This document shows positions 52,445-59,876 of a DNA stretch of 60,897 bases, one piece after another; position 1 is the first letter of the stretch; each line of letters opens with the position of its first letter. The notes under the pieces were generated by a model. The model had not been told where the DNA came from and made no database searches. It was given only the letters and a program-made list of their open reading frames with translations. A program made the position numbers and the translations under genes. The DNA is from Sedimentisphaerales bacterium (GTDB taxonomy: Bacteria; Planctomycetota; Phycisphaerae; Sedimentisphaerales; Anaerohalosphaeraceae): NCBI GenBank assembly GCA_016926155.1, contig JAFGPC010000216.1:1-60897 (forward strand). The letters run 5' to 3'.

Positions 52445-53089
52445 TTACCGCATGACCCAGGTTTTGCTCTTGAAAGTCAGGTTTGTCTGAGCCCGGAGTT
52501 TGGCGTCGCCACCTGTAAAGTATTCCAATCCTAGTGTCTTTCGCAGGATTACTTTTTGGGGGATTCCTACGGAATCGACTTTGATCGGATGATCAATTAC
52601 AGCCGTTTCATTGCTCAGGCCGGCGAGGAAAAACGTCACCAACCCGGCTTTGGAATCAAAATCCGGCCAGATAATGGCAATATCCCGCGTGTGGTCTTGC
52701 CCCTGAAGAATCTTATGGTCCACATCCTCCAGTGCTTCCAAAAAAGGATATCGTCCCTGGTGCCGCAGTTTAATCGCATCGAACACCGCACGGGGAGTAT
52801 CGGTTCCGGCTTGGATCGTTTTGAAGGTATCGGTCACCAATTCGCAGGAGGGGTAAAAAGGTGCATCCGTCATGGTACTGTTATTTGTTACGATCAGAAT
52901 AATATACCAGAATCGTCTCGCTTGTTCTTCACCGGGTAGTTTCATGGTAATCTGCTGGGGATTCTCATAGACAACCTCTAACGTCCAGTCGCCAATAGCA
53001 GACACCACCGCCGGTTTGGGATAGCTCAACACAGTCCCGATCCCGATCAGCATCCCAAGAGACACTATAGCCACAACCGCTCGTTTCAT
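52445..53089 (-). CDS. Exported hypothetical protein, 214 residues
   Basis: ATG 53089 starts a signal-like segment (VVAIVSLGMLIGIGTVLSYP). The mature protein is beta-rich (DWTLEVVYENPQQITMKL, RFWYIILIVTNNSTM), followed by a mixed region with IAIIWPDFDSKAGLVTFFLA. The pattern looks like an exported Ig-like or Sbal-type sandwich, a type often seen in planctomycetes, but no named domain is visible. It lies convergent to the epimerase and divergent from mgtE. Function is unknown. Confidence 0.6.
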   Translation of the reverse strand: MKRAVVAIVSLGMLIGIGTVLSYPKPAVVSAIGDWTLEVVYENPQQITMKLPGEEQARRFWYIILIVTNNSTMTDAPFYPSCELVTDTFKTIQAGTDTPRAVFDAIKLRHQGRYPFLEALEDVDHKILQGQDHTRDIAIIWPDFDSKAGLVTFFLAGLSNETAVIDHPIKVDSVGIPQKVILRKTLGLEYFTGGDAKLRAQTNLTFKSKTWVMR

Positions 53090-54755: not shown

Positions 54756-54785
54756 TTGACACGATTTAGGCAAATGGGGTATAAT
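54756..54785 (+). promoter_or_regulatory. Consensus sigma70-like promoter of the PilT/PilB-like/CvpA operon
   Basis: TTGACA (54756-54761) and TATAAT (54780-54785), both perfect, with an 18-bp spacer. The leader to ATG 54900 is about 108 nt. It is the strongest promoter visible in the window. Confidence 0.7.
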
Positions 54786-54899
54786 GTAGTTTTCCAGCTA
54801 TGTCTGGACCCTGACCGACACAAGGGGGATTCTCAGAGGGAATCCAACCGGAGAAAAGCAGAAAAACAAGATAACAACCAACAATACAGGAGCCCATGA

Positions 54900-56030
54900 A
54901 TGAAGGGCCAGCCGATTGACAGTCACGTACATCTCGAAAAAACGCCGGATATCGAAAAATGGTTCCGCGCCGCCATTAAAGCCGATGCCTCCGATCTGCA
55001 TTTGAAGGTCGGAATGGCCCCCAAAATGCGGGTTCACAGCCGACTGAAAAACACAACAGGGGAGGTCATGACACAGGAACGAGTAGAGGAACTGCTCTTC
55101 GAAATCATGACACCCAAACAGAGACAATACTTTCTTGAAACTGGCGCCCTCGACTTTGCCTATCAGGTAGAACAGACCGACCGGTTTCGTATCTGTGCCT
55201 TTCGTCAGCGGGGTATGACCAGTATGGCCGCACGGCATATCAGTAGCCACATTCCCCCATTTGAAACCCTGCACCTGCCACCCGTCGTCGAGAAAATTGC
55301 AGAACATCATGATGGTCTTGTGTTGGTCACCGGTCCTACAGGCTGCGGTAAAACCACCACAATTGCCTCGATGATCGATCACATTAATACCACTCGGGCC
55401 TGTCATATTGTAACGGTCGAAGATCCGATTGAGTTTCTGCACGTTGAGAAAAGAGCCATCGTATCGCAGCGCGAGATCGGCATCGATGTGCCCACCTATG
55501 ACGAAGCTCTTCGCTCTCTGATGCGTATGGATCCCGATGTGGTGCTGATCGGTGAAATGCGGGACAATGAAACTCTAACGGCCGCTATGCGGGCCGCGGA
55601 GACAGGCCACCTGGTCTTTGGAACCCTACATGCCAATAATGCCTCCCAGACCATTCAACGAATCCTTGATCTGTTTCCTCAGGAGGAGCGTGATCTGGCC
55701 AGGCAAACCTTTGCTCTGACGATTCGAGCCGTGGTCAGCCAGCAATTGCTGCCGGGCATCCGGAACGACGCCCCACGCATTCCCGCCGTGGAAATCCTGC
55801 TCCGTACGCCGATCGTTCGCAAACTGATCACCGAATCGCGGGAAAATGACATCCCCACCGCCATTCGATCCGGCGAAGGAGAGGGAATGCAGGATTTTAC
55901 CGAGTCGTTGAGGAGATTGGTCGTCGAAGAATGGATCGATCTGCGGGTGGCAAAACAATATGCGCCAAACATGGAAGAGCTGGAAATGGCTCTCAAGGGC
56001 ATTCGCTCATCGACAAGTGGAATTATGTAA
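54900..56030 (+). CDS. PilT-like ATPase (type IV pilus/GspE family)
   Basis: ATG 54900 follows AGGAG by 7 nt. The 376-residue ATPase has all the PilT-type motifs: DLHLKVGMAPKMRVHSRL, the Walker A VLVTGPTGCGKTTTIASM (Lys151), TVEDPIEFLHVEKRAIVSQ (Asp box), DPDVVLIGEMRDNETL (Walker B), and TGHLVFGTLHANNASQTI (His box). RIPAVEILLRTPIVRKLI is in the C-terminal domain. ATP turnover should be intact. PilT proteins power pilus retraction, but no pilin or other pilus genes are seen. Its partner is the membrane-bound PilB-like protein encoded 10 bp downstream, so the role may be something other than motility. Confidence 0.9.
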   Translation: MKGQPIDSHVHLEKTPDIEKWFRAAIKADASDLHLKVGMAPKMRVHSRLKNTTGEVMTQERVEELLFEIMTPKQRQYFLETGALDFAYQVEQTDRFRICAFRQRGMTSMAARHISSHIPPFETLHLPPVVEKIAEHHDGLVLVTGPTGCGKTTTIASMIDHINTTRACHIVTVEDPIEFLHVEKRAIVSQREIGIDVPTYDEALRSLMRMDPDVVLIGEMRDNETLTAAMRAAETGHLVFGTLHANNASQTIQRILDLFPQEERDLARQTFALTIRAVVSQQLLPGIRNDAPRIPAVEILLRTPIVRKLITESRENDIPTAIRSGEGEGMQDFTESLRRLVVEEWIDLRVAKQYAPNMEELEMALKGIRSSTSGIM

Positions 56031-56040
56031 TCTTGGGTAG

Positions 56041-57723
56041 GTGCGCTTCATGGAATTGACAATACCGTTTGTACTGGCCGTCACATACGGCGGATATGTT
56101 TCACCGATTAAACTAGCGATTGTTTTAGTGTTCTTTTTCCTGTGGATGCCTTTGGTGAACTGGACGTATAAAGACACCCAGGAGGTTCAGACCAAGACTG
56201 AGCAATGGACGACGGCTATGATTCTTGCCGGGGCTATCGGATTGCTTGTCTGGATTCTTATACCGGTTTTTTTGATCGGTTTTCTGCTCTATCTGGTGGT
56301 TTTAGGGGCTACCTCGCTGGCGTATGTGGTCCATCGGAATGCACGGGTAGCCGAATTTGAAAAAATCCTCACCGCTGATCACATTAAAAATATCTTCATC
56401 AACCAAAAAAAACGTATGGAAAAAGCAACACGCGGACTCACGCTGGTCACCGCTAATGGCAATGAAGTGCCCATGCCGCTTCCTAAAACCACTGAAGCAA
56501 TCGGTTTCCAGATGATCTGTGAACTGTTCGAAGACGCCATGTGGCGCCGTGCCTCCGATATTCTCTTTCAGCCCGGACAACAGGACTATTCCGTTACCTA
56601 TATCGTCGATGGAATGCCGATGAAACAGCCCGCCCGATCTCGGGAGGATATGGAACATTTCATTCACTTCATCAAACACATGGCTGACCTGGAGGTCGAA
56701 GAACGAAGAAAGCCGCAAATCGGTAAATTCCGGATCGATAAAGGAGCCGACCGTATTAAATGGGAAGTCCTCACAGCCGGATCCACCGCGGGCGAACAAC
56801 TCAAGGTTTCTCGTGTTCAGGAGTATGGTACTCGAACAGTAGAAGATATGGGATTTCAGCCCAAACAGGTCGAAGCTGTCAAAGGGCTACGTAAGTTGAA
56901 TAAAGGCGTGATCGTATTGACTGCCCCCCCCAAGAATGGGATTACCACCACGATGTACGCCTTTCTCCGTAACCACGACCTCTATATGAACAATGTCAAT
57001 ACAGTGGAAAAAAAGCTGGCCGCCGATCTGCAGAATATCACCCAGCATGTCTACTCCCCCAGCGATACAGGAACCACCACGTATGCCAAGAAAGTGCAAA
57101 GCGTGCTTCGCATGGGTCCGGAAATCATCGGGATTGCCGATTGTGAAGACAAGCAGTGTGTCCAACTGGCTTGTGCCGCCGGCCGGGATGGGGTGATCGT
57201 CTATCCGACTATGCAGGCTACCAGCGTGCTGCAGGCCCTGAGCCGCTGGCTCCAAATGGCCGAGGATAAGGATATGGCCATTGAAACGCTGGCCGGTATC
57301 CTCAATCAGCGGTTAATCCGCATCTTATGCGAAGACTGCAAGCAAGCGTATCAGCCTAATCAGGATCTCCTGCGAAAATTCAACATCCCCGCCGACAAAA
57401 TCGAGGTTCTCTATCGGCCGGGCGAAATCGAATATGACAAGCACGGAAAACCTATCGTTTGTGAAAAGTGTCAGGGTACAGGATTCTACGGACGCACAGG
57501 CGTCTTCGAAATGATTGTTATCGATGAATCCCTGCGGGCCGCCTTAAAGAAAGCCAAGTCGATCAAGGAAATGGGCGCCCTGTTCCGAAAGGCCGGGATG
57601 CTTTACCTTCAGGAACAATGTATCAAAAAAGTGGCGCAGGGCATTACCTCTATCAACGAGGTAATCCGCCATTTCTCGCAAAAAGCGGAAACCAACGAAA
57701 AACAGAAAAACGGCAATCAATAA
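56041..57723 (+). CDS. Membrane-anchored PilB/GspE-like protein with degenerate ATPase motifs
   Basis: GTG 56041 or ATG 56050 starts this 560-residue protein. Residues about 8-100 hold three or so membrane helices (IKLAIVLVFFFLWMPLVNW, LAGAIGLLVWILIPVF), unusual for PilB/GspE. A GspE-like N2 domain follows (RRASDILFQPGQQDYSVTY). The nucleotide site is lost: the P-loop reads LTAPPKNGITTTMYAF, with Ile301 where Lys is needed. The Asp box is TVEKKLA, and Walker B reads GPEIIGIADCEDKQCV without VGEIRD. The zinc module is kept (ILCEDCKQAYQPN ... CEKCQGTGFYGRTG). It should bind partners but not hydrolyse ATP. I infer a scaffold or membrane adaptor for the PilT-like ATPase encoded just upstream. Confidence 0.85.
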   Translation: MRFMELTIPFVLAVTYGGYVSPIKLAIVLVFFFLWMPLVNWTYKDTQEVQTKTEQWTTAMILAGAIGLLVWILIPVFLIGFLLYLVVLGATSLAYVVHRNARVAEFEKILTADHIKNIFINQKKRMEKATRGLTLVTANGNEVPMPLPKTTEAIGFQMICELFEDAMWRRASDILFQPGQQDYSVTYIVDGMPMKQPARSREDMEHFIHFIKHMADLEVEERRKPQIGKFRIDKGADRIKWEVLTAGSTAGEQLKVSRVQEYGTRTVEDMGFQPKQVEAVKGLRKLNKGVIVLTAPPKNGITTTMYAFLRNHDLYMNNVNTVEKKLAADLQNITQHVYSPSDTGTTTYAKKVQSVLRMGPEIIGIADCEDKQCVQLACAAGRDGVIVYPTMQATSVLQALSRWLQMAEDKDMAIETLAGILNQRLIRILCEDCKQAYQPNQDLLRKFNIPADKIEVLYRPGEIEYDKHGKPIVCEKCQGTGFYGRTGVFEMIVIDESLRAALKKAKSIKEMGALFRKAGMLYLQEQCIKKVAQGITSINEVIRHFSQKAETNEKQKNGNQ

Positions 57724-57744
57724 TATGAAATACCGGGAGAACAA

Positions 57745-58827
57745 ATGATTATTCTGGGCATCATACTGCTCATTATCGTAGCATGTGCAATCTATTATTA
57801 TCTGAAATGCACGATCATGACAGCTATCACTTCATTGTTCTGTGCTTTTTTTGCCATGTTGATTGCAATGGGTTATTTTGAAAACATAAATAACTTTCTG
57901 GTTGCCAAAGGCATGATCGGCCCCAACTGGCCTGCCGTTATTCTCCTGGTTTTATTCTCGTTTACCGCCGTTTTATTGCGCGTCCTGGCGGGATTTGTCG
58001 TCGGTTCACAAATCGATCTGGGGCAAATGACTCAGAAAGTTGCTGTTCCTGTTCTTGGCGTCTTTCAAGGCCTGATTCTTTCGGGGATTATCGTGATCGC
58101 AACAGGTTCTGTCTCCAGCTCCAAATGGATCAGTTATGAAAGGTTTACCCCTGGTTCAGAAACCCCATCCAATCCCAGCAAACCTTTGATCAATGCCGAC
58201 GGTATGGTTAGTGGTCTATTTTCCTGGATCAGTCAGGGTTCTCTAGGCGGCAAAAAGAGCTTTGCCGTTTATCATGCAGATTACCTCGATCAGCTTCATC
58301 TGTCCCGCATTGAAGGAACGTATCCCCTTGCCGGAGCAACCTGTATGATCGTCCCTTCCAAAGGAGTACGGCGACGTACTTTTGACGAGGTCAGTTATCT
58401 TGTCGTTCGCATGGGTTTGCGAAACACTGATATCAAGACAGGTGGCGCCCGTGCTCCTACCGGCGAGGTATCATTTGCTCCAGTCCAGATTCGTCTTATC
58501 GCCAAAGATGCGTCTCGCCCGTCCAACACCACCGGCACCGGACAGGTCTTTTATCCCCATGGATTTGTCGAAAACGGAACCCTTGTTAAAAAGCCTTTAA
58601 ATGAAGTCATCACTATGGACCGAGACAAGGATATTATCAGGAAGCCGGCGGGATTGGCAGCATGGTATGATGTCGCCTTTAAGATCCCGGAAAACCAAAC
58701 GCCTATTCTGCTCCAGTTCAAGCTGGGCGGCGTGGTCGACCTGCCGAAGGTACAGACCAGTACCGACGAACTGGAACGACAGCTCGATGTTCAGGAAAAC
58801 AATCCTAACGAGAAAAGTGGGAGTTGA
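57745..58827 (+). CDS. CvpA-like membrane protein
   Basis: ATG 57745 follows GGGAGA. The 360-residue protein opens with four membrane helices (about 1-125: IILGIILLIIVACAIYYYL, SLFCAFFAMLIAMGYF, WPAVILLVLFSFTAVLL, GVFQGLILSGIIVIAT), in the arrangement of the CvpA family. About 230 residues follow outside the membrane, beta-rich and ending in an acidic tail, and are not part of typical CvpA. CvpA is linked to colicin V export and membrane homeostasis, but its mechanism is unsettled. Being the third gene of the PilT/PilB-like operon, it is a candidate partner of that system. Confidence 0.7.
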   Translation: MIILGIILLIIVACAIYYYLKCTIMTAITSLFCAFFAMLIAMGYFENINNFLVAKGMIGPNWPAVILLVLFSFTAVLLRVLAGFVVGSQIDLGQMTQKVAVPVLGVFQGLILSGIIVIATGSVSSSKWISYERFTPGSETPSNPSKPLINADGMVSGLFSWISQGSLGGKKSFAVYHADYLDQLHLSRIEGTYPLAGATCMIVPSKGVRRRTFDEVSYLVVRMGLRNTDIKTGGARAPTGEVSFAPVQIRLIAKDASRPSNTTGTGQVFYPHGFVENGTLVKKPLNEVITMDRDKDIIRKPAGLAAWYDVAFKIPENQTPILLQFKLGGVVDLPKVQTSTDELERQLDVQENNPNEKSGS

Positions 58828-58868: not shown

Positions 58869-59876
58869 ATGCCACTATTCTTCGACACCGTTATTGAACG
58901 GGCCAAACAACATCGAAAAAGGATCGTCCTTCCTGAAGGCGCCGACCGACGTATGATCGAAGCGGCTGCGATGATTCGGCAATACGACTTTGCGGAACTG
59001 ACCGTTCTCGGTGATGACAAGGCTATAACGCAACAGCTTACAGATCTGGACGTTTCGATCACGGAAGGTATGATTCTCAATCCAGCCAACACTGAAAGAA
59101 AACAGGAATATGCCCGTCAGTTGTTCGAGCTTCGAAAAACCAAGGGCATGACCGAATCACAGGCCGAACAGATCATCTGTGATCCCATGTATTTTGGAAC
59201 GATGATGGTCAAACTTGGCCATGCCGATGGTCTGGTCGCCGGCGCAGCTCATTCCTCCGCCGACACCATTCGACCCGCCCTGCAGATTATCAAGGCCGGA
59301 CCCGGTTGCCGTACGGTATCGAGCATGTTTTTCATGTGCTGGCCCGATCGGGTATTGCTCTTTGCCGATTGCGGCCTAAACCAGGATCCCAATGAATCCC
59401 AGCTTGTCGATATCGCCGTTGCAACCACCCGAACGGCCTTCCTGTTCGGACTCAAACCCCGGGTCGCCATCCTGTCCTATTCGACCAAAGGCTCCGGCGC
59501 TGGAACCGGCGCGATGAAAATGGCCCGTGCTGCCGAGCGTGCTGCCGAACGGATTTTCGCTTTGTTCGGGGCGGCGGTACCGGTGGATGGAGAATTACAG
59601 TTCGATGCGGCGTTTGTTCCTGAAATCGCCGCTAAGAAATGCCCCAAAAGCAAGCTCAAGGGAAATGCCAATGTTTTTATCTTTCCGGATCTGAACGCAG
59701 GAAATATCTGCTATAAGGCGGTTCAGCGGCTGGCCGGCGCCGAGGCCTATGGCCCTGTTCTGCAAGGTTTGGACAAGCCCGTCAACGATCTTTCACGTGG
59801 CTGCAGCATTGAAGACATTGTCGCCACCGTGGCGATTACCGCCATCCAGGCCAGCGAAGGACCGATCCCTGTTTGA
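58869..59876 (+). CDS. pta: Phosphate acetyltransferase
   Basis: ATG 58869 is chosen because the conserved LFFDTVIERAKQHRKRIVL follows it; an upstream TTG overlapping the CvpA-like stop is less likely. The roughly 335-residue enzyme converts acetyl-CoA and phosphate to acetyl phosphate and back. Signatures are RIVLPEGADRRMIEAAAMI, DPMYFGTMMVKLGHADGLVA, MFFMCWPDRVLLFADCGLNQ, SYSTKGSGAGTGAMKM, and FIFPDLNAGNICYKAVQRLA. GPVLQGLDKPVNDLSRGC closes the active site. Acetate kinase is not adjacent. It follows the membrane operon by about 40 bp and may be cotranscribed. Confidence 0.95.
   Translation: MPLFFDTVIERAKQHRKRIVLPEGADRRMIEAAAMIRQYDFAELTVLGDDKAITQQLTDLDVSITEGMILNPANTERKQEYARQLFELRKTKGMTESQAEQIICDPMYFGTMMVKLGHADGLVAGAAHSSADTIRPALQIIKAGPGCRTVSSMFFMCWPDRVLLFADCGLNQDPNESQLVDIAVATTRTAFLFGLKPRVAILSYSTKGSGAGTGAMKMARAAERAAERIFALFGAAVPVDGELQFDAAFVPEIAAKKCPKSKLKGNANVFIFPDLNAGNICYKAVQRLAGAEAYGPVLQGLDKPVNDLSRGCSIEDIVATVAITAIQASEGPIPV

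Follow-up and report, generated by a model that had tools for sequence, protein, structure and literature searches.

The question raised by this locus is why a PilT-type ATPase should be encoded together with a second ATPase of the PilB/GspE type, carrying membrane helices and a degenerate P-loop, and with a CvpA-like protein, and whether the three genes are a conserved unit or a local remnant. The window analyzed was the 60,897-nucleotide contig JAFGPC010000216.1 of a Sedimentisphaerales bacterium (GCA_016926155.1, positions 1 to 60,897). The pilT, PilB/GspE-like, and cvpA genes were all confirmed within 54756-58827 (Table 1). As had been claimed from the DNA itself, they are tightly packed on one strand (+), with gaps of 10 bases between pilT and the PilB-like gene and 21 bases between the latter and cvpA, and they follow a consensus promoter. 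Of 12 relatives, 11 have the same type of site 5' of pilT, with a 12/12 match in 8 and an 11/12 match in 3. An MgtE transporter gene lies upstream of the unit, and a phosphotransacetylase gene, with a likely ATG at 58869, lies downstream. The claim that pilus genes are missing nearby also stood: no pilin, PilC/GspF, or secretin was recognized in the subset of window genes scanned as neighbors, and neither pilins nor PilC nor a secretin occurred among the conserved neighbors of operon loci. A 214-aa protein without a Pfam family, encoded at 52445-53089 (-), was found close to the operon at about 10 loci within the order. Several relatives among loci L048 to L056 (L-numbers denote loci of the sample) carry, 3' of cvpA and on the same strand, genes for a radical SAM protein and for a protein kinase of the Ser/Thr type (the annotation is that of L050), in the position taken by phosphotransacetylase in the window.

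Table 1. Coordinates of the features of the three-gene locus
Feature	Position	Strand	Basis
Sigma-70 type consensus promoter, TTGACA-N18-TATAAT	54756..54785	+	12/12 match
PilT-type ATPase, 376 aa	54900..56030	+	TIGR01420; all catalytic motifs intact
Membrane-anchored PilB/GspE-like protein, 560 aa	56041..57723	+	PF00437; Ile301 at the P-loop Lys position
Three N-terminal membrane helices (predicted), residues 22-49, 53-73, and 77-102	56104..56346	+	AlphaFold2 model, mostly pLDDT ~90
Degenerate P-loop TAPPKNGITTTM, residues 294-305	56920..56955	+	Alignment
CvpA-like membrane protein, 360 aa, four helices plus C-terminal beta-rich domain	57745..58827	+	Orthologue matches to PF02674; model

The first protein scored 418 bits (2.8e-125) against the PilT subfamily model TIGR01420, which has a curated cut-off of 319, and its best solved relative was PilT 2ewv. 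It had been described as retaining every ATPase motif, and the P-loop (Walker A), Asp box, Walker B, and His box were indeed intact, both here and in nearly all orthologues. In these respects it resembles the PilT/PilU retraction ATPases. However, the operon PilTs form their own clade (SH-aLRT 98), apart from the other PilTs of the genome, and their neighbors are the genes for CvpA and for a membrane PilB-like protein rather than pilus genes. In two loci of family f2 (L034 and L046), the operon PilT showed partial motif loss, with a variant His box or P-loop, as though the active partner were weakening there too.

For the second protein, the start may be the GTG at 56041 or, equally likely, the ATG at 56050 behind GGTAGGTG, which would give 557 aa. 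It matched the T2SSE family (PF00437) with 175 bits (1.6e-51) but did not reach the equivalog cut-offs for PilB or GspE (TIGR02538, 178 versus 676 bits; TIGR02533, 204 versus 630 bits). The AlphaFold2 model, with a mean pLDDT of 89.6, resembled Thermus PilB/PilF (5it5) and Vibrio EpsE (1p9w), with TM-scores of up to 0.90 (target normalized, 0.90 with 5it5_A). Membership of the same ATPase superfamily, as proposed, was therefore supported by both the Pfam match and the predicted fold. Fold, order of core motifs, and zinc module are shared with PilB/GspE ATPases; the Cys pairs of that module are present in the aligned window protein and usually also across the class, as the original prediction had it for the window. 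The differences lie at the N terminus and in the catalytic residues. The helices expected there were found in the model, standing where pilus-type ATPases usually carry the MshEN docking domain. MshEN (PF05157; MshEN/N1E in PilB/GspE) was present in 2 of 3 pilus or secretion paralogues scanned from this genome and absent from the window protein and six other operon members scanned. The charged residues K44, D45, K52, and R99 onward suggest a topology with the N terminus outside and the ATPase domain in the cytoplasm. In two loci of genus g86 (L115 and L123), the operon PilB-like protein has lost cysteines of the zinc module (RALAESSREAY), with the rest kept.

The alignment placed Ile301 at the position of the P-loop Lys, as had been stated, and the sequence APPKNGIT departs from the PilB/GspE consensus GxxxxGK[ST]. 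This is not peculiar to the window. Of the roughly 134 operon proteins in the class (Phycisphaerae-type genomes), about 131 were without the Lys, mostly with Val (69), Leu (23), Ile (14), or Arg (14) in its place. The operon proteins at L016, L176, and L177 have the Lys, by reversion or retention. Three more Lys-bearing sequences in the class sample are ordinary GspE-type paralogues, L071 and L084 by their tree position and L198 by inference. Among 137 class sequences, the P-loop Gly was invariant and the Thr/Ser was kept in 136. The Asp and Walker B boxes had been called lost, which held in part: most sequences lack the Asp of the Asp box and the His of the His box, but the Asp-box Glu was kept in 136 of 137, and Walker B is better described as altered than as lost, with Asp at the catalytic Glu position in 68 of 137 and Glu in 37. 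Between close relatives, the dN/dS of the PilB-like gene was 0.03 to 0.17, falling between the pilT and cvpA values in every pair for which all three were measured. The altered protein is therefore under constraint.

The third protein was modeled with a pLDDT of 90. The window copy had no Pfam match and did not reach the gathering score of CvpA (PF02674), but orthologues matched that family at an E value of ≤1 in 29/33 and 17/17 cases (46/50 together; best, 1e-11), and some scored above the gathering threshold of 29.3 bits (among them L103, 34, and L100, 29.9). Judged by family, it is a CvpA relative, as had been proposed, despite the lack of a match for the window copy by itself. The four-helix N-terminal domain is shared with the CvpA/Colicin V production family. 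The operon protein differs in its linkage to pilus-type ATPases and in often carrying an extra C-terminal domain of no recognized fold; Foldseek comparison of this domain with solved structures returned low TM-scores only, and assignment by fold was abandoned. In enteric bacteria, CvpA is known for its part in resistance to deoxycholate (PMC6705877).

Within the sampled order, almost every genome had a full-length orthologue of the PilB-like protein. Others were detected across the class, with identities as low as about 28%, and beyond it in part of the Planctomycetota (families f43, f71, f74, f80, f82, f48, f81, and f33, where f-numbers are family codes); f55, f47, and f37 gave core matches alone, as expected of ordinary GspE. 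The genomes retrieved by a scan with a 10-member profile were all planctomycete or Phycisphaerae/Sedimentisphaerales, apart from one uncultured bacterium. A pilT gene lay just upstream in 112 of the 129 loci examined, some of which overlap in the same genome or come from near relatives, and a gene for a four-helix protein followed in nearly all. The order pilT, PilB-like, CvpA was thus seen in most loci; it was conserved all through the class to which the window belongs and also in some of the other Planctomycetota sampled, so that a gene order unique to one genome was rejected. Some loci lacked a pilT call, and in most f43 genomes the PilB-like and CvpA genes are adjacent with pilT elsewhere. 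Lysine loss and membrane helices were conserved alongside the same neighbors across the class, as predicted; together with the gene order, this indicates that the unit is conserved and did not arise by local decay. The hisF gene lay directly upstream of the operon in 23 loci from many families, which points to vertical descent, and the module has apparently been inherited in this way. The literature covered, which took in few subscription papers or preprints, yielded no description of the trio.

The original prediction had taken an intact P-loop in related homologues as a sign of decay. Within the class the Lys is nearly always absent, but in five other families (f43, f82, f48, f81, and f33) the same operon gene encodes an intact P-loop (for example, GPTGAGKSTTL), Asp box, Walker B, and His box. 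In these families, too, the protein has membrane helices, and its gene is followed by one for CvpA (Pfam tested, L108 left out). Lysine loss, which on this evidence is lineage specific, therefore does not define the system, and the module can do without a lysine-less ring. The proposal of a membrane-docked active/inactive ATPase pair with a CvpA partner accordingly stood as to a conserved unit, but the inactive second ATPase is not its defining trait. In the PilB-like tree, all operon members fell into a single clade (SH-aLRT 96) that excluded the other PilB/GspE proteins of the genome. In a quick search of this tree, the two groups without the Lys came out together, though weakly supported (76). 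A constraint joining the f43, f82, and f71-type rows improved the likelihood by 9.35 (p-AU, 0.69), and the PilT tree grouped the same rows at 99, so that two separate losses of the Lys are favored over one. A shorter GspE-like protein (435 to 439 aa) without membrane helices or the P-loop Lys was also observed in f43 and f71 genomes (L128:5866-7170 and L127:5875-7194); genome G382 has both this protein and an intact operon copy.

The three-gene unit looks like an undescribed membrane machine. Our preferred reading, held at a probability of about 0.5, is an old planctomycete module that combines a PilT motor with a PilB-fold ring anchored in the membrane and with a CvpA partner, in which the lysine-less ring would serve as a coupler. 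A hexameric cytoplasmic PilT-type motor would act against the second, membrane-embedded ring of PilB/GspE fold, which would anchor by its own three membrane helices and not through the usual docking partner. CvpA would be the membrane partner in a physical complex with them, its extra domain probably facing the periplasm. In the window's class, the second ring is probably non-hydrolyzing in the normal way and may act as a fixed coupler or adaptor; if so, PilT alone would power the module, and the ring would pass the work on. PilT and PilU are two related retraction ATPases that act as a pair, and the operon likewise pairs two related ATPases, but here the partner is PilB-like, membrane anchored, and lysine-less. 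The module reading draws on the wide conservation of the genes and their order, the hisF neighborhood, the purifying selection, the CvpA matches of the orthologues, the separate clades of both ATPases, the exchange of MshEN for helices, and the loss of the Lys with retention of the Gly, Thr/Ser, and Asp-box Glu. Counting against it are the families whose second ATPase is intact, the three class members with a Lys, and the f43 genomes with pilT elsewhere, and since hisF is also kept beside the operon, the shared gene order may partly reflect slow rearrangement. The stronger version, a pilus-independent machine that is widespread in Planctomycetota and lost the Lys in parallel at least twice, is put forward tentatively.

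The main rival, which we consider possible although on the unlikely side, is an accessory unit of ordinary type IV pili, comprising a PilU-like second retraction motor and a lysine-less, membrane-bound regulator of pilus ATPases. Several pilus-type PilB and PilT genes occur in the same genomes (in that of the window, besides the operon copies, about 10 PilB/GspE genes and three PilT genes, along with many PilC genes), and PilC and PilM were present in every class genome checked. This universality means that co-occurrence cannot separate the operon from pili, and the approach was dropped. Many of the PilM-domain matches lay in open frames of 650 to 850 aa, about twice the usual PilM length. For PilB as a signaling protein, a Myxococcus study offers a precedent (PMC5544727). 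The operon ATPases are nevertheless placed by both trees in clades apart from the genome's pilus-type ATPases, the conserved neighbors include no pilins or PilC, and these genomes have other PilTs that sit close to PilBs, all of which argue against an accessory role.

That the second protein still binds or slowly hydrolyzes nucleotide without the Lys, making both ATPases active motors, appears improbable. The retained Gly, Thr/Ser, and Asp-box Glu, the Arg substitutions, and the three Lys-bearing operon members would fit it, but the Lys, Asp-box Asp, and His-box His are all gone in most members, and the Walker B Glu is usually Asp or another residue. Still less credible is that the genes are neighbors by descent only and their products do not act together. 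Retention of hisF beside them in many families without an evident functional link would fit it; the three genes, however, overlap or nearly abut behind one promoter, rarely with any insert, across much of the phylum, and they stay together while the flanks change. Local decay of a pilus operon would account for the lost catalytic residues but was ruled out by the class-wide conservation and the dN/dS values. A defense system was also rejected: PADLOC gave no match for the second and third proteins and a weak partial match of PilT to mad8.

If the module reading is true, pilus-motor ATPases would be in broad use without a recognized pilus in the gene cluster, in a phylum of unusual cell biology. 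The operon would provide a natural experiment, in which the second ring is active in some families and lysine-less in others, and may offer a way into the molecular role of CvpA, of which little is understood.
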